A DNA stretch of 64,000 bases from Salinibacter sp. 10B. Its GTDB lineage: Bacteria > Bacteroidota > Rhodothermia > Rhodothermales > Salinibacteraceae. Under the pieces are notes generated by a model. It saw only the letters and a list, made by a program, of their open reading frames with translations, was not told where the DNA came from and ran no database searches. The stretch spans positions 2,623,909 through 2,687,908 of the forward strand of contig NZ_MQWC01000004.1 in NCBI RefSeq assembly GCF_002954405.1, given 5' to 3'. Positions 14,827 to 29,956 of the stretch are shown here, one piece after another. A program made the position numbers and the translations under genes. The stretch's first letter is position 1. Each line of letters opens with the position of its first letter.

Positions 14827-17800
14827 TTATTCGGTCTCTTGAGAGGCATACGGCCCGAGGTGGATCGAGGGCTCATCGTAGCCGAGGAGAGTGGTTTGTA
14901 CCCAGGCCGTGGCGTCGCGCTGGAGCATGGCGAGCGACGGCACCATGAGCATGAGCACGGCGGTGCCGAACAGGATGCCGGCGCCGAGGCTCACGGCCAT
15001 CGGGATGAGGAACTGGGCCTGGACGCTCTGCTCGATGATGATGGGAAAGAGGCCGAGGAACGTAGTGAGCGAGGTGAGCAGGATGGGGCGGAAGCGCATC
15101 TGTCCGGCCCGCACGAGGGCGTCGGCCCAGCTGCGTCCCTTTGCGCGCTGCTCATTCGCAAAGTCGAGCATCACGAGGGCGTCGTTCACAATGACCCCAC
15201 TGAGTCCAACGATCCCGAAGACACTGAGCAGGCCCAGCGAGATGTCGAGCGCGAGGTGTCCGATCAGCGCACCGATCCACGCGAACGGAATGGTGCTCAT
15301 GATGACGAGCGGCTGCAAGTACGAGCGGAAGGGAATGGCCAGCAGGGCGTAGATGGCGAACAGGGCCAGCAGGAAGCCGATGACGAGCGAACTCTGGGCC
15401 TTGCGCTGCTGCCGCTGCTGTCCGCCGAACTGGTAGGTCATGCCCGGAATATCGCGCTGGATGGAGGGCAGCACGCTGCTGTTGAGGTTGGCGGTAACGG
15501 CACTGCCGGTCGTCACCGCCGAGTTGACGTCGGCGGTGACGGTGATGACGCGGCGGCCGTCCTGGCGGTTGATTTGAGTGGGGCCGTAGCTGACCGCCGC
15601 CGTGGCCACTTCCTCCAGGGGCACGTCGGCCCCGGACGGGGTACGGATCCGGTACTCGTCCAGGTCGGCGATGGCGTTGCGTTCGTCGTCGGGGAGGCGG
15701 GCGTAGACGCGCACCTCGTTCTGCCCGCGCTGCAGACGGTACGATTCGACGCCGAAGAATCCGGCGCGCACCTGCTGGGCGAGGTCGTTCAACGTAAGCC
15801 CGAGCGTACGAGCGGCAGGCTTCAGGTTGAGCTCGATCTCGCGCTTGCCCTGGTCGCGGTCGGACTGAATGTCGAACACGCCCCCGAAGCGCTCCAGCGA
15901 ATCCCGCACGGCCGTCACAGCCCGGTCCAGCCGCTCTTCGGATGGAGCCGAAATCTCGACAGATACGGGCTCGCCCACCGACACGACGCTCGCGGTGAAG
16001 GCGAGGGAGCGAGCACTCGGAATCTGGCCCGTCTTCTCCCGCCACCGCTCTTCAAACTGCACGGACGTGACGGCCCGTTCCTCCGGATCGATCATCTCGA
16101 AGCTCACCTCCGCCACGTTCGACTGCGTGGGCGTAAAGCCGGCAGCATCGGGGCCGCTCGTGGCGCGCGGCTGCTGGCCGACGGTCACGTACACGTTCTG
16201 TACGAGATTCTGTCCTGCCTGTGTCTCCAGCTCCTCAATGGCGTCATAGCCCGTTTCTTGGAGCCGAGCCGTGATATTTTCGGTGCGCTCCGGCGTGGTC
16301 CCAGCCGGCATTTCCAGCTGGGCGGTCACCAGCTTGCCCTGCACACTGGGAAAGAAGGAGAAGCCGATGTAGCCGTTCGCGACGAAGCTGAACGAGATGA
16401 GCAGCAGCGCCAGGCCGCCACAGATCGTGACGCCGTAGCGTCGGGTGGCAAAGTTGAGGGCGTCGGTGAGCGGGCCGCGGACGAACGTCCAGAGCCCCGC
16501 TGCCACGCGCCGCCGCACCCGGTTGAGGCCGCGCACGAGAAGAGCGGAGGCCTCGTCATCGCGTTTCGGACTCTCGGAGAGGTGGTACGGCAGAATGAAG
16601 AGCACCTCCACCAGCGAGAGCAGCAGCACGATAATTACGATCGTCGGGATGTCGCCCAGGAATTTGCCGATCGTGCCGCCGATGAAGAGGAGGGGCATGA
16701 AGGCGGCGACGGTGGTGAGTACGGCAAAAATCACCGGAATCCCCACGCGCTGCGTCCCCCGAATGGCCGCGTCTAGTGGATTGCCCCCGTTCTCCTGCTC
16801 CGTGAAGACATTTTCCCCCACCACGATCGCGTCGTCCACCACGATGCCGATGGAGAGGATGAAGCCGAAGAGGGAGAGGAGATTGATCGACACGTCCAGA
16901 AACTGCATCACGATGAACGTCCCGATGAACGATAGGAAGATGCCCACGGACGTCCAAAACGCGAGGCGGGGAGCGAGGAAGAGCGTGAGGGCGACGATGA
17001 CAAGCAGCAGCCCCAGGATCCCGTTTTCGATCAGCAGATTGAGCCGGCTGCGCAGATTCTCCGCCTGATTCTGCCAGATGGCCGCTTCGATCCCCGCTGG
17101 CAGGGACGAGGCTAAGTCCTCATCGAGATAGGTTTTCACCGTCTCTTCCACCTGGAGGACCTGCTCGTCGCCCGTGCGGAAGACGTTGAGAATGGCGGCG
17201 GGGCGGCCGTTGAAGCGGGTGATGAGGTCCGAGTTGGTGGCGAACCCGTCCTGCACCGTCGCCACGTCACCGAGTCGGAGGGTGGTGCCGTCGGGACGGG
17301 AGAGCAAGACGAGGTCCTCAAAGTCGGTCTTCGTGTAGTTCTGCCCCTCGGTGCGGATGGTGATCTCCTCCTCGGCCGTCTCGATGTTGCCGCCGGGGAG
17401 GTCGAGGCTGCCCTCGCGCACGAGCTGGGCCACGCGGCCCAGGGTGAGACCGTAGCTGCGGAGTGCCTCACGCGACATTTCCACCGAAATCTCGTAGTCC
17501 CGCACGCCGCTCAGCTGGATGAAGGAGATCTGCGGGTCCTGCGTGAGATCGTCCTTGACGCGCTGGGCCAGCTCCTTCAAGACGCGCTCGCTGGCGTCGC
17601 CGTAGAGGGCAATCTGGAGGGCCTGCTGGCGGTTGGTGACCTCGGTGACGATCGGCTCCTCGGCCTGTACGGGGAACGCCGTGATGCGGTCGACTTCCGA
17701 TTTGATGTCGGTGCGGGCCCGCGAAAGATCGGTGCCGCGCTTCAACTCGGCGGTTACGAGGCCCACGTTCTCGCCCGCGGTGCCCAGGATGCGGTCGATG

Positions 17801-18030
17801 CCCTCCACGCCTTCGATCCGGTCCTCGATGCGGCGGACGATGGACTGCTCGACCTCTTCGGGGGAGCCGCCGGGGTACGTGACGCGGACCTGGACGGCGT
17901 CGAGGCTAAACTCGGGGAAGACCTCCTGTACCGTAGTGGTGGCCGCGCCAATGCCGCCCAGCAGAATCAGCAGCATCAAGAGGTTGGCCGCTACCCCATT
18001 TCGGGCGAACCAGTCGATTACTTTGTTCAT
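14827..18030 (-). CDS. RND efflux pump inner-membrane permease (HAE1/AcrB family)
   Basis: The proton-driven pump of a tripartite exporter, 1067 residues, normal for the family. It starts with the typical cytoplasmic helix and first membrane segment (WFARNGVAANLLMLLILLGGIG). Two large periplasmic loops and two membrane bundles follow; the fourth-helix-like GIVVDDAIVVGENV carries the adjacent Asp pair used for proton transfer. It is the last gene of the TetR-TolC-HlyD-[four-helix protein]-RND operon. The insertion of the four-helix gene 63 bases upstream separates it from its adaptor. Substrate range is unknown. Confidence 0.95.
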   Translation of the reverse strand: MNKVIDWFARNGVAANLLMLLILLGGIGAATTTVQEVFPEFSLDAVQVRVTYPGGSPEEVEQSIVRRIEDRIEGVEGIDRILGTAGENVGLVTAELKRGTDLSRARTDIKSEVDRITAFPVQAEEPIVTEVTNRQQALQIALYGDASERVLKELAQRVKDDLTQDPQISFIQLSGVRDYEISVEMSREALRSYGLTLGRVAQLVREGSLDLPGGNIETAEEEITIRTEGQNYTKTDFEDLVLLSRPDGTTLRLGDVATVQDGFATNSDLITRFNGRPAAILNVFRTGDEQVLQVEETVKTYLDEDLASSLPAGIEAAIWQNQAENLRSRLNLLIENGILGLLLVIVALTLFLAPRLAFWTSVGIFLSFIGTFIVMQFLDVSINLLSLFGFILSIGIVVDDAIVVGENVFTEQENGGNPLDAAIRGTQRVGIPVIFAVLTTVAAFMPLLFIGGTIGKFLGDIPTIVIIVLLLSLVEVLFILPYHLSESPKRDDEASALLVRGLNRVRRRVAAGLWTFVRGPLTDALNFATRRYGVTICGGLALLLISFSFVANGYIGFSFFPSVQGKLVTAQLEMPAGTTPERTENITARLQETGYDAIEELETQAGQNLVQNVYVTVGQQPRATSGPDAAGFTPTQSNVAEVSFEMIDPEERAVTSVQFEERWREKTGQIPSARSLAFTASVVSVGEPVSVEISAPSEERLDRAVTAVRDSLERFGGVFDIQSDRDQGKREIELNLKPAARTLGLTLNDLAQQVRAGFFGVESYRLQRGQNEVRVYARLPDDERNAIADLDEYRIRTPSGADVPLEEVATAAVSYGPTQINRQDGRRVITVTADVNSAVTTGSAVTANLNSSVLPSIQRDIPGMTYQFGGQQRQQRKAQSSLVIGFLLALFAIYALLAIPFRSYLQPLVIMSTIPFAWIGALIGHLALDISLGLLSVFGIVGLSGVIVNDALVMLDFANEQRAKGRSWADALVRAGQMRFRPILLTSLTTFLGLFPIIIEQSVQAQFLIPMAVSLGAGILFGTAVLMLMVPSLAMLQRDATAWVQTTLLGYDEPSIHLGPYASQETE

Positions 18031-18090
18031 CTGTAGAACGTTGGCGGGTTGAAGGTTGGAAGGTGGAGGGTCGGAGGGTTCAGAGTTGGA

Positions 18091-18602
18091 GGGTTAAGGG
18101 TTGGATTGGTCCCAGTCGATTTCATAGCGCACCCGTCCCTCTTGCACTCTTGATGCATTGGGGCGGGACTTCAGGTAGCGGATGAGTCCGTGGATCTGCC
18201 GGGATGCTGTATCGCCGAGATTGTACGTCTTGTTGAACTCCTCCTCGCTGATGTACTCCCGATCTTTGGCGAGATACAACTGGGATTGCACCTCCGCGGC
18301 GGATCCTCGTGCGCGACCGAGCAGATCAAGGAAAACCTTTTGGGTGCGGCTGTTGAAGCCTTCCGCAATGTTACTCATCACCGACACGGCGGCCCGCCGA
18401 ATCTGATCGCGAAGACCGAAGTCGCTGGCAAACGGGTCGTCGTCAGATAGACCATACACGAGATTGCAAAGTTCTCGTCCCGTCTTCCAGGCGTCCAGTT
18501 CCTCAAATCGCGTAATCGTGGCCATCGTCTCTCAGGTACGATTTTCGTCGTCGAAAGAACGCTCAACACACACAACTTTTAACTCCCACCAACCCTTAAC
18601 CC
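18091..18602. repeat. Inverted repeats bounding the first four-helix-bundle cassette
   Basis: GGGTTAAGGGTTGG at 18091-18104 is perfectly matched in inverse at 18589-18602. Both sit in longer runs of degenerate GGTTGGA/GGGTTAAGG-type repeats (18040-18104 and 18570-18610). The left arm contains the stop codon of the four-helix gene; the right run reaches the stop codon of the upstream adaptor gene. Confidence 0.7.
18094..18525 (-). CDS. Four-helix-bundle protein (S23/IVP family) inserted in the efflux operon
   Basis: 143 residues of the 23S rRNA-intervening-sequence/Avd-like four-helix-bundle superfamily. The signature is [22 protein letters not shown] (about 39-60, quoted here in part) followed by a VQSQLYLAKD helix. 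Members include proteins encoded in rRNA insertions and the Avd accessory factors of retroelements; the role of stand-alone copies is unknown, with nucleic-acid binding a common suggestion. It interrupts an otherwise ordinary adaptor-RND operon in the operon's own direction and is bounded by inverted repeats. A homologue at 29510 occupies an equivalent place between gmd and fcl. Confidence 0.88.
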   Translation of the reverse strand: MATITRFEELDAWKTGRELCNLVYGLSDDDPFASDFGLRDQIRRAAVSVMSNIAEGFNSRTQKVFLDLLGRARGSAAEVQSQLYLAKDREYISEEEFNKTYNLGDTASRQIHGLIRYLKSRPNASRVQEGRVRYEIDWDQSNP

Positions 18603-18610
18603 CCAACCCA

Positions 18611-19858
18611 CTAACGCTCAACCCGAACTCTCATACTGTCGGAGTGGACGCGCAGGTCGGTCGTGATGATGCGGCTATTCGGATCGAGTGTTGGGGCCAG
18701 AAACGTTTGGTTTTCAACAGTTTGAATGAGCTCGACCGGTTGCTCCACGAGCATCGAGTCGCCCACGGCAGTCCAGACGGTCGGGGGCTGGTCTGGCGCA
18801 CGCGTGTGAACGGCCCGGCGTGGGACCACGTGGTACGTTCCCGATTGCCGTCCTTGTATGTCGACCGTCGCGTACGTGCCCACGGCCAGCGGCGGAGGCG
18901 CCGTCCCATACGACTCGTCCGGCATGTGCGACGCGACCGTCCCGTTGTCCTCCAACCGGTACGGATTTTCGACCCGCACCACCACATCCACCGTTCGCGT
19001 CTGCTCACTGATGGCGCCTTCGACGCGGTGAACGAATCCGTCCCACGAGAAGGAAGTGCCACCGTAGGTGTGTGACACCGTGGCGGGCAGGTCCACGGAC
19101 GTGCGCCGGGCGGCGGTCGACCAGAGATTTTGGATCAGGGCCGCTTTGCTGGACGGGAGGGAGACGACAATTTCCACCACCTCCGTGCCGTAGACGGTGG
19201 CGACGGGCGTGCCGGGGGCAAGGTAGGCCCCGAGATCGGCCTGCTTGGTGCGCACCATGCCGTTGAAGGGCACCTCCAGCGTCGTGCGGGCCAGGCGCGT
19301 CTCGGCGTTGTCGAGGGCCGCTCGTGCACTTTCGAGGTTGGCCTCGGCCTGGGCCACCTGCGGCTCGTTGAAGACCAGTCGCCCGAGCTCCGTGCTGTCC
19401 GGCTCCGGCGCCTGCCCCGTCCGCTCCCGAATGCGCTCGTAGTCGCGACGGGCGGCGCCTGCCTGCTCACGGGCCTGCAGGAGCTGTACCTTTGCCTGCG
19501 TGACCTGCGCCTCGGCTTGCTGCACGGCGTTCCGGTAGTCGGTGGGATCGACTTGGGCCAGTACTTCGCCGGCTTCAAAGCGTCCCCCGCTCACGAGCGC
19601 TTCCGACACGTCGACGAGCCGCCCGGCCACCTGTGTCGTGAGCTGAATTTCACGAACGGGGCGGACGGTGCCGGTGCCCCGCACGAGCAGGCTCCCGGAG
19701 CGCACGTCTACCGGCACGGTCGACACGAGGGGCGACTGCGGCGGGGGCTCCTCCTTCGGCGGCTGGGGCGCCAAAAGCCGAAGCAAGACGACGATAGCGA
19801 CGGCCCCCACGAGGAGTCCGCCTCCGATGAGGTACCACTTGTAGTTGCTGAAGTCCAT
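18611..19858 (-). CDS. RND efflux periplasmic adaptor (HlyD/MFP family)
   Basis: 415 residues linking the inner-membrane pump to the outer-membrane channel. One N-terminal membrane anchor (WYLIGGGLLVGAVAIVVLLRLL, residues about 8-29) precedes a periplasmic part with the lipoyl half-motif AGRLVDVSEALVSGG, a coiled-coil hairpin (about 105-185, rich in Gln/Ala/Arg) and a beta-barrel with NTRLARTTLEVPFNGMV-type sequence. Its final codons read ...GTTGAGCGT then TAG, and this end coincides with the start of the repeat run that precedes the four-helix gene. Second structural gene of the operon. Confidence 0.94.
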   Translation of the reverse strand: MDFSNYKWYLIGGGLLVGAVAIVVLLRLLAPQPPKEEPPPQSPLVSTVPVDVRSGSLLVRGTGTVRPVREIQLTTQVAGRLVDVSEALVSGGRFEAGEVLAQVDPTDYRNAVQQAEAQVTQAKVQLLQAREQAGAARRDYERIRERTGQAPEPDSTELGRLVFNEPQVAQAEANLESARAALDNAETRLARTTLEVPFNGMVRTKQADLGAYLAPGTPVATVYGTEVVEIVVSLPSSKAALIQNLWSTAARRTSVDLPATVSHTYGGTSFSWDGFVHRVEGAISEQTRTVDVVVRVENPYRLEDNGTVASHMPDESYGTAPPPLAVGTYATVDIQGRQSGTYHVVPRRAVHTRAPDQPPTVWTAVGDSMLVEQPVELIQTVENQTFLAPTLDPNSRIITTDLRVHSDSMRVRVER

Positions 19859-19969: not shown

Positions 19970-21523
19970 CTACTGGAACAGGCGCGGGTCCTCGACCGAG
20001 TCGGTATCGGTCCACGTGCCGCCTAGGGCACGGTGGAGGGCCAGCCGGGCATTCACGGCCGCCAATCGTGCGGCGGCGAGGCGCGTTTGGGCCTGCACGA
20101 GGCCTCGCTCCGCATCCAGGAGCGAGAGCACGTCGCCGATGCCGCTCTCGTAGCGGTCGCGTTGGGTCTGGAACGAGGCGCGCGCCGAAGCCACCTGCTC
20201 TTGCAGGAAGCGGACGCGCTGCCGCTGCTTGTCGTAGGCCACGAGCGACGCCTTGACCTCCCGAAACGCGGTGAGGACCGTGTTCTGGTAGGCGGCGGCC
20301 TGCTGCTCGTAGCGGGCCTCGGCGGCATCCAGATTGGCGCGGAGGCGTCCGCCCTGGAAAAGCGGGGCGGTTAGCTGCGCGGCAAAGTTTGCAAACCGCT
20401 GGTCGATGTTAATCAGGCTTGCGAGGTCGCTGCTCTGTGTGCCGCCGGTGGCGGTGAGGGACAGGCTCGGCAGCATCTCGGCCCGTGCCACCCCAATCTG
20501 CTGGCGGGCGGCCTCCAATCGGAGGGCACTTGCCCGCACGTCGGGCCGCTGCATCAGCAGGTCGGACGGCAGGCCGGCGGGAATCGGCGACAGGTCGAGC
20601 GAGGCATCAATCGAGTCGGGGAGGAGGGCCTGCTCTTCGCCCGCGAACCGTCCGAGGAGCGTGGCAAGCCGACTCTCGGCGTCGTACAGCTGGCTCTCCA
20701 GCTGCGGCTGCTCCGACTGCGCGGCTTCCAGGCTCTGCCGGACGGTATACAGTTGAAACGACGGCGTGAGGCCCCGCGCGTATCGATCCTTCGTAATTTC
20801 AAGGCGTTGCTGCAGCAGGTCCACCGCCTTTTGGCCCAGCGCCACCTGTCGCTGCAGCGCGGCGACCTGGAAGTAGGTGGAGATTGTTTGGCTGATGACG
20901 GAGATGCGGGCCGTCTGCAAGTCGGCCGCCGTCGCAAAATACTGGCTGAGTGCCGCCTTGCGCTGGCTCCGCACGCGCCCCCAGAAGTCGAGCTCGTAGG
21001 AGAGGCCAAGGGTGGCCTGGTAGGTGGAGAACTCGAAGCGATCCGGGAACGACTGTTGCTGTCCACCGCCGGGCGCACCGCCACCATTTTCGCCGTTGCC
21101 TCCGTCCCCTCCACCGCTCCCGATCGCCCCCCCGATGCCTGTGTTGGCCGGCTGGTTCTGATAATTCAACTGCCCGTTGGCATTCGCGCTTGGGAAGAGG
21201 GGCGCACGTGCAATCCGAAACTGCGCCGCCAATTCCTCCACGCGGGCCTGGGCGGCTGCGAGGTCAAAATTGGCGGCGAGGGCCGTGTCCACGAGCGTCG
21301 TGAGCGTGGTGTCGCCGAAGGCAGTCCACCAGCGCTGGGCGTCGTAGCGGGCCGTGTCGGCGGTTGCGGCAGGGAGGACCGTATCGGCCGGGGCAAACGT
21401 GGCGGGCAACTCCCGTTCGGCTTCCGGAGCGGGCATCGACGGGGTGAGCGAGCACCCCGGGAGCAGGAGTCCGCCCGACAACAGAAGCACGCTGAGTAGG
21501 AAGAAGAAAGCAGAACGGTGCAT
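19970..21523 (-). CDS. TolC/NodT-type outer-membrane efflux lipoprotein
   Basis: 517 residues from the ATG at 21523, chosen because it places a lipoprotein signal at the N-terminus (LLLSGGLLLPGC, acylated Cys24). Two repeated OEP domains with long helices are visible (for example ARVEELAAQFRIARAPLFP and LRLEAARQQIGVARAEMLP), the standard pattern of outer-membrane efflux channels. A Gly/Asn-rich insert (GGAIGSGGGDGGNGENGGGA region, about 145-170) is unusual and probably a surface or periplasmic loop. It is the first structural gene after the TetR regulator. Confidence 0.94.
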   Translation of the reverse strand: MHRSAFFFLLSVLLLSGGLLLPGCSLTPSMPAPEAERELPATFAPADTVLPAATADTARYDAQRWWTAFGDTTLTTLVDTALAANFDLAAAQARVEELAAQFRIARAPLFPSANANGQLNYQNQPANTGIGGAIGSGGGDGGNGENGGGAPGGGQQQSFPDRFEFSTYQATLGLSYELDFWGRVRSQRKAALSQYFATAADLQTARISVISQTISTYFQVAALQRQVALGQKAVDLLQQRLEITKDRYARGLTPSFQLYTVRQSLEAAQSEQPQLESQLYDAESRLATLLGRFAGEEQALLPDSIDASLDLSPIPAGLPSDLLMQRPDVRASALRLEAARQQIGVARAEMLPSLSLTATGGTQSSDLASLINIDQRFANFAAQLTAPLFQGGRLRANLDAAEARYEQQAAAYQNTVLTAFREVKASLVAYDKQRQRVRFLQEQVASARASFQTQRDRYESGIGDVLSLLDAERGLVQAQTRLAAARLAAVNARLALHRALGGTWTDTDSVEDPRLFQ

Positions 21524-21593
21524 GGGAGAGGTCGGAAAACAAGAAGAGCCGACCGGGCGGGTCGGCTGTACATTACGGATTGGGTCCGGGTCG

Positions 21594-22232
21594 TTAGCTC
21601 GGCGCAAGGCCGTGGTAGACGAGGTCGAACAGGTGATCTTTTCGGTTTTCCACGAAGGCGTCCCAGTTATTCTCTGCCGGGGGATGTACGATCTTCACCG
21701 TCGGTTGGGAGACGAAAAAGAACAGACACATAGAGATAACGGAGATGACCGTATGAGTGGGGTCCACCGACCGAATCTCTCCGGCCTGAGCCGCCGAGGC
21801 AATGGTTTCCACGAGAAACTTTGGCGGAGCGTCCCCGGCCTTCATTGCTTCGCGCAGATGCGTTCCAAGAAGCGACCCGCCTGTGAGGTTTTCATTCACC
21901 ATGAGCCGCATGGCGTTCTCATTCGCACGCACAAAGTCCACGTAGCCGTCGATGAAGGCGCGGAGCGTCTCTTCGAAGGTAGGCGCCTCCTCCAGCGATT
22001 CGCCAAACGACGCCATGAAGCGCTGCATCGTAAAGCCGAACACCTCCTCGTACAGTGTCTCTTTGTCGCGAAAGTAGTAGTGGAGCATGGCCTTGTTGAT
22101 GCCGGCAGCATCCGCAATTTCCTGCATCCGGGCCCCACGTTTGCCCTCGCGGGCGAAGACCTGCAGGGCGGCGTCGAAAATGGCCCGCTCAGTGTCGGAG
22201 TAGTCGGCGAGCGGGTCGGCAGCGTCGGGCAT
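21594..22232 (-). CDS. TetR-family transcriptional regulator of the efflux operon
   Basis: 212 residues from the ATG at 22232 (an ATG 15 bases upstream is also possible). The N-terminal HTH reads GARMQEIADAAGINKAMLHYYF followed by DKETLYEEVF, the canonical TetR domain; the C-terminal ligand-binding domain is all-helical. It is the first gene of the efflux operon, 70 bases ahead of the outer-membrane gene, so it most likely represses its own operon and responds to a pump substrate. A dyad upstream of its start is a candidate operator. Confidence 0.9.
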   Translation of the reverse strand: MPDAADPLADYSDTERAIFDAALQVFAREGKRGARMQEIADAAGINKAMLHYYFRDKETLYEEVFGFTMQRFMASFGESLEEAPTFEETLRAFIDGYVDFVRANENAMRLMVNENLTGGSLLGTHLREAMKAGDAPPKFLVETIASAAQAGEIRSVDPTHTVISVISMCLFFFVSQPTVKIVHPPAENNWDAFVENRKDHLFDLVYHGLAPS

Positions 22233-29492: not shown

Positions 29493-29956
29493 ACGTGCAA
29501 CGCAGAACGTTACTCTGTGCTGTATTCCGGGGGATCCTCACGGGCGCGACCGGAGTCGTCCCGATTCTTTAGGTGCCGGATGAGGTGATAGAGCTGACGC
29601 GACACTTTGTCGGCCAAATCAGACACGGCTCTAAACTCGTCCTCATCAAGATAGCCCTGATCTCGTGCGACGTACAACTGCGACCGCACCTCGCCGGCGG
29701 ATGCCTTGGCCGTTCCGAGAAAATCGATAAATTGAGGACGCGTACGACTCTCGAATCCCTCTGCAATGTTGGACATCACACTAATCGCCGCCCGGCGAAT
29801 CTGGTCTTTAAGTGTCCAGTCGTCCGTAAATCCGTCTTTCTTGCTCAGGGCGTAGACGTGGTTTGTCAGCGTTCGAGCGGACGTCCACACACGGAGGTCT
29901 TCAAATCGTTCGGCCATGACTCTCAACGCGAAAAGCGCCCGTTCAACGTTGTACGC
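29493..29956. repeat. Imperfect inverted repeats bounding the second four-helix-bundle cassette
   Basis: ACGTGCAACGCAGAACG at 29493-29509 matches the inverse of 29940-29956 at 13 of 17 bases. The left arm abuts the stop codon of the four-helix gene and the right arm encodes the last codons and stop of fcl. Sequence differs from the 18091-18602 repeats, but the placement relative to stop codons is the same. Confidence 0.6.
29510..29917 (-). CDS. Four-helix-bundle protein (S23/IVP family) between fcl and gmd
   Basis: 135 residues from the ATG at 29917 ([11 protein letters not shown]); an ATG three codons upstream is also in frame. It is clearly homologous to the protein at 18094: both share RFE-L--W at the N-terminus, [20 protein letters not shown] in the centre and EV-SQLY-A-D after it. 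It sits between two genes of one pathway, in their direction, with short repeat-bearing spacers (25 bases to fcl, 49 to gmd). This repeats the arrangement seen in the efflux operon and argues for insertion of a mobile cassette. Function unknown. Confidence 0.88.

Follow-up and report, generated by a model that had tools for sequence, protein, structure and literature searches.

A PF05635 gene within complementary heptad arms at an efflux operon junction of Salinibacter sp. 10B, and a candidate hairpin element gained or lost between genes

Introduction

In an efflux operon of Salinibacter sp. 10B, a small gene of the PF05635 family (23S_rRNA_IVP, S23, four-helix bundle; IVP hereafter) stands between the adaptor and RND pump genes with repeats on both sides, and the question is what such a gene does at this junction and whether the repeats belong to it. 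To our knowledge, PF05635 genes are common, often multicopy and represented by solved structures, but outside rRNA no role is known for them. Heptameric repeats have long been noted as a curiosity and are ascribed to polymerase slippage. A first-pass annotation had read the gene and its repeats as a small mobile cassette. It is suggested here that the focal feature is one copy of an IVP-hairpin element, whose protein would act on its arms as a hairpin at the DNA level, a reading from sequence comparison to which we give about an even chance.

The focal junction and its arms

The window (the whole stretch of 64,000 nt that was analysed) carries a minus-strand efflux operon, for which ORFs and Pfam give the order OEP, adaptor, PF05635 gene and RND pump. 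The first-pass annotation had placed an S23-type gene between the adaptor and RND genes, in the same direction, and this is borne out by both sources; the span that it had marked is exactly the intercistronic region. The features are as follows.

18031..18610, minus strand: whole adaptor/RND intercistronic spacer, made up of the IVP element (arm, gene, arm), from sequence and ORFs; exchanged as a block between the genomes G003 and G010
18094..18525, minus strand: PF05635 gene, 143 aa (Pfam, 109 bits)
18558..18622, minus strand: 5' (sense) arm of degenerate heptads GGGTTGG/GGGTTAA/GGGTTGG, from alignment and a period-7 signal
18034..18103, minus strand: 3' (sense) arm, complement of the 5' arm, from alignment and an independent lag-7 segment at about 18046-18102
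18091..18104: perfect 14-nt inverted pair, copy 1, GGGTTAAGGGTTGG, from sequence
18589..18602: perfect 14-nt inverted pair, copy 2, CCAACCCTTAACCC, from sequence
18611..19858, minus strand: HlyD/MFP adaptor, upstream operon gene (PF13437, HlyD_3)
14827..18030, minus strand: RND pump, downstream operon gene (PF00873, ACR_tran, 569 bits)
19970-21607, minus strand: OEP, first of the listed efflux operon genes (PF02321)
about 29513..29956, minus strand: second PF05635 copy in the window, at an unrelated junction and with its own arms (CGTTGAACGTT type), from genome search, flanks and tree

The focal protein scores 109.4 bits on the PF05635 profile, against a curated cut-off of 33.8, and its gene is presumably transcribed together with the efflux operon. 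The perfect 14-base inverted pair reported earlier was rightly positioned, its two copies being exact complements; a repeat search gives a longer, imperfect pair (18074-18104 / 18589-18619, 31 nt, 74%), and local alignment gives gapped arms of about 65-70 nt. As had also been noticed, the left (3') arm supplies the stop codon of the IVP gene; this arm ends a few bases short of the RND start, and the 5' arm overlaps the last codons and the stop of the adaptor gene, where the RVER* codons fit the repeat. With a score of 23, the focal pair comes at rank 1-2 of 93 when compared with the arms of all other loci. ORFs, Pfam and Rfam place the element between the adaptor and RND genes and outside any rRNA gene; the Rfam scan of the focal junction gave no match.

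Private arms of PF05635 copies in many phyla

Seven PF05635 copies are present in the window genome (G000), and two of these lie within the window. Reading the flanks of the other copies, a comparison that the first-pass annotation had recommended, showed that these too are bracketed by short degenerate repeats, complementary from side to side; the repeats could not be upheld as element ends common to the copies, since the heptad motif is a different one in each (GGGTTGG, CGAGGATTGAG, TTTCGAG, TGCGTAT, GTGTATG and others). The arms of two of the seven (L001 and L003) score at background, and two copies (L005, L006) contain an in-frame TAG.

Across 93 loci of the genus, family and phylum, own-flank complementarity was 18.05, compared with 11.25±0.31 for re-paired flanks (maximum of 10,000 permutations, 12.6), and among 76 named loci from 15 phyla it was 20.2 against a permuted 10.25±0.36, with 50 of the 76 individually at p<0.05. 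This complementarity is found mainly within 100 nt of the gene on either side. In the same genomes, 61% of IVPs and 10% of 415 ordinary genes exceed the 95th percentile of cross pairs. The arms have a 7-nt periodicity, with an excess at lags 7, 14 and 21 that is absent from coding controls, and their inverted similarity (z 39) is greater than their direct similarity (z 25), the latter probably due to some copies having a full hairpin on one side. Significant arms are missing in about a third of PF05635 copies. By computation, then, PF05635 genes in many phyla lie inside complementary heptad arms that are private to each copy.

The named loci also agree with the earlier proposal that such genes enter operon junctions in line with the direction of transcription: 53 of 69 have the same direction as both neighbours, and only four are opposite to a co-directional pair. 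Conserved 23S words, sought in the sampled copies as a test of rRNA location, were not found. One IVP group (L063, L064, L066, L074) lies directly downstream of radC, judged by the radC C-terminal peptide that precedes its members.

Arms at non-homologous sites become more alike as protein identity rises (9.0 below 40% identity, then 9.7 and 10.2, and 12.2 at 60-70%), a trend that persists when GC is matched and when the named set is taken by itself (Mantel r 0.15, a value reached in none of 2000 permutations, p<1/2000). Because the arm motif tracks the protein lineage at unrelated sites, the arms belong to the element. Within orthologous groups, the two arms of one gene match each other more closely than arms drawn from two species do, by a modest mean of +2.15 (p 0.016), and the two arms therefore seem to change together.

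Heptad hairpins without a gene

Heptads were sampled by lag-7 segment detection, over 400 kb in G000, rather than counted genome-wide; a generic inverted-repeat scan of 864 kb was swamped by the GC-rich background, and lag-7 segments were used instead. The 400 kb contain heptad hairpins without a gene in spacers, for example at L144 and L140. At L144, both pyruvate dehydrogenase gene junctions (18306-18405 and 19396-19490; genes recognised by eye) have gene-less hairpins, with differing motifs. Such hairpins resemble the IVP arms of their own genome (14.7) more than the IVP arms of other genomes at similar GC (11.0±0.46). In a sample of 29 genomes, those with more IVPs tend to have a higher heptad density (rho 0.58, p 0.0009, with no correction for phylogeny and weak by family). 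IVP-rich genomes have 38 lag-7 segments against 11 expected from other lags, and IVP-free genomes have seven against nine expected, one of the seven being a run of N in G096. There are exceptions to the trend: G071 has 15 IVPs without a heptad excess, G010 has no heptads in 400 kb, and G047 and G075 have a few heptads and no detected IVP.

These data bear on whether the association could be passive, with polymerase slippage producing heptad hairpins in spacers and IVP genes merely tolerating or preferring such sites. Gene-less heptads do occur in many places, and the available portions of two reports (PMC4692102, PMC4679880) describe abundant heptameric repeats without a named driver; slippage of this kind would nevertheless leave the link between motif and protein lineage at unrelated sites unaccounted for, as well as the rarity of such arms at ordinary genes of the same genomes and the scarcity of heptads where IVPs are absent. 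We regard passive residence as improbable.

Level at which the arms act

The arms could instead work in RNA, as an intervening sequence whose ends pair in the transcript, where an RNase cuts the stem and frees the IVP RNA, making insertion into an operon harmless. The anatomy is that of the 23S rRNA intervening sequence of Coxiella burnetii, where an S23p ORF forms the loop between complementary ends that RNase III cuts (PMC4990558), the bias towards the same direction at gene junctions is as this would have it, and the predicted RNA fold of the focal spacer pairs both arms; the folding z-score, however, is only -1.17. In 103 arm pairs, G-U and A-C mismatches numbered 183 and 208 (null 1832 and 2279, p 0.4), and a weak G-U excess seen in 48 pairs, which had suggested selection at the RNA level, was gone in the larger set. 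There being no excess of G-U over A-C, the arm sequences favour a DNA-level structure. Moreover, an RNase III stem needs no tandem heptads, and the same motifs also occur in hairpins that have no gene. Action at the RNA level is thus considered unlikely.

Gain, loss and spread at spacers

The gene is at the focal junction in eight of the 11 genus genomes that have the operon and is absent in three (G004, G007, G010); it does not, then, hold the same operon position in all relatives, which the first-pass annotation had named as evidence against mobility. The eight include G005, counted from a contig that starts inside the gene, and G016, whose copy aligns in two pieces only and may be broken. 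Outside the genus, the junction has the gene in four genomes of three other family genera and lacks it in four other family members; seven relatives in all have a gene-less junction with intact pumps.

Between the filled junction of G003 and the empty one of G010, the flanks are mostly 94-99% identical and the spacer is wholly replaced. The comparison of relatives proposed earlier thus found junctions without the gene, but not the repeat-free site that was to define the element ends, as the "empty" spacer consists of a gene-less hairpin, 82 nt long, whose motif is unrelated. No target-site duplication was seen at the focal junction, where the empty sites are occupied by this unrelated hairpin. 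The gene-less junction hairpins of G010 (L013) and G007 (L016) are identical over about 81 nt while the flanking genes clearly differ, as if these hairpins had been recently exchanged.

In the protein tree, with moderate support, the junction copies fall almost entirely into a single group, which goes against a separate entry at this junction in each lineage. The copy at 29.5 kb of the window is nested inside this group, and therefore one lineage probably moved from the junction to a new site. At a second site, upstream of der/engA, five genomes have a complete or almost complete gene (that of G001 being diverged), G003 has a degraded fragment (G003:C1:456532-456651) and five have nothing. This fragment, together with the in-frame TAG codons of L005 and L006, is copy decay in progress. 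The IVP protein is under purifying selection, with dN/dS of 0.07-0.17, and 0.08 for the focal gene compared with its G006 ortholog. The element is gained or lost at orthologous spacers, and its preferred place is between two genes that run in its own direction.

This distribution already contradicts the reading of the gene as a stable accessory of the efflux operon, such as a regulator or assembly factor, in an ordinary spacer. The occurrence at the same junction in the other family genera and the purifying selection would suit such a gene; its absence from the junction of relatives with intact pumps, and the presence of relatives of the protein at many unrelated sites, make it scarcely credible.

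Protein fold and absent partners

The AlphaFold model of the focal protein has a pLDDT of 90. Its best solved match is 2gsc (XCC0516, Z 19.2), followed by 2rld (BT_0352, Z 16.7), and the Avd matches come next (4dwl, Z 13.4, and the diversity-generating retroelement complex 8ube, Z 14.0), above unrelated bundles and at 9-10% identity. According to this predicted model, the protein has the four-helix fold of the solved PF05635 members 2gsc and 2rld.

The element encodes the PF05635 protein only, without a transposase, and searches of G000 gave no match to reverse transcriptase (PF00078) or to Y1 (HUH) transposase (PF01797) that might act in trans. Reverse transcriptase was rejected as a partner, as its number has no correlation with IVP count (rho 0.04) and it is missing from 13 of the 24 genomes with at least five IVPs. 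The number of Y1 transposases correlates with that of IVPs over 60 genomes of the phylum (rho 0.52). A Y1 transposase is not required, because the window genome and five of the 24 IVP-rich genomes have none.

As for the small mobile cassette of the first-pass annotation, presence or absence at the same junction in relatives and copies elsewhere in the genome stand, whereas common terminal repeats and a clean empty site do not. A conventional version, in which a transposase acts on terminal inverted repeats and the cassette enters operon junctions, would fit the occupancy of orthologous junctions and the L001 group, which appears derived from junction copies and lies at a new site. It is very improbable given the lack of common terminal repeats, of a clean empty site or target duplication, of any transposase in the element, and of Y1 or reverse transcriptase in the genome.

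Promoter-like motif and DNA-uptake setting

Within the family of the window genome, the motif CGTTA-N-RTGTCT is found just upstream of 14 of 64 PF05635 copies, against a background of 0.0004 per flank. In G000, CGTTA-N15-17-GTGTCT has 23 sites compared with three for the control (L312-L331 and others). These precede, among others, genes identified by Pfam as RecA, SSB, ComM, RadC, a ComEA-like HHH protein and a phage-integrase-family recombinase (IntI-like by eye), as well as DUF2851 and LTD genes, and the motif is also upstream of the IVPs L004 and L006. By coordinates, 13 of 169 genus sites are directly before PF05635 genes; the focal gene is without the motif. Read from the identity of its genes, the set is a probable DNA-uptake and recombination (competence) regulon. 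At L321, a small ORF with the motif reads by eye like a RAYT/REP transposase and has no Pfam match.

Proposed mechanism

From the anatomy and association described above we infer a protein action, a homogenising process and a transfer route. In the IVP-hairpin element, the arms would be a DNA-level structure, probably a single-strand hairpin, on which the PF05635 protein acts; its substrate might be folded single strands, in the context of recombination. The two arms could be kept alike by fold-back copying or slippage. The gene with its arms would be the parent, and gene-less hairpins its satellites or remnants. Spread between strains may proceed by recombination or replacement of spacers. 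DNA uptake is a plausible occasion for it, since a promoter-like motif is common to several non-operonic copies and to recA, ssb, comM, radC and the comEA-like gene. A broader idea is possible, if doubtful: that PF05635 proteins drive bacterial heptameric inverted repeats in general, building or maintaining private heptad hairpins without a transposase and spreading them through spacers, with the protein in many cases made together with uptake and recombination proteins.

PF05635 genes and heptameric repeats are hereby tied together, and each gains a testable partner. The results also suggest DNA uptake and recombination as the setting of IVP elements.

Comparison with known systems

The IVP-hairpin element differs from insertion sequences and MITEs in that its copies have no common terminal repeats. 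The focal protein has, in the predicted model, a fold in common with Avd of diversity-generating retroelements, at the low identity given above; unlike those systems, the window genome has no reverse transcriptase. REP/REPIN sequences with their RAYT (TnpA_REP) are closer, as they also combine a gene with flanking hairpins and dispersed gene-less hairpins of similar sequence; however, the IVP element has no tyrosine transposase, its sequence varies per copy and its unit is a degenerate heptad. The IVP-hairpin would be functionally like RAYT/REP without the transposase.

Heptameric intergenic repeats have been described in Xanthomonas (GGGAATC, often as inverted pairs, 70 in Xcc) and Nostoc (GGGGATT) (PMC4692102), and in Beggiatoaceae (TAACTGA) (PMC4679880). 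As far as the available portions of these papers extend, they name no associated gene; searches of the freely accessible literature gave no report linking PF05635 genes to heptameric repeats. The 7-nt units and intergenic position are alike in both, whereas the repeats analysed here bracket PF05635 genes in many phyla and have a private motif per copy. An IVP of X. arboricola (L271) has arms of the GGGAATC type and immediately precedes an ORF resembling accC, as recognised from its sequence.

Among known systems, the rRNA intervening sequence with its S23p ORF comes closest to the IVP element; it is patchily distributed and has been called selfish (PMC4990558). Both have the same protein family, an ORF enclosed by complementary ends (at the focal site, the imperfect arms and the perfect 14-mer) and a patchy distribution. 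The focal element differs in lying between protein genes and not in rRNA, in having arms of tandem heptads private to each copy, and in the existence of gene-less versions. The data suggest that rRNA intervening sequences are a particular instance of a broader kind of DNA element.
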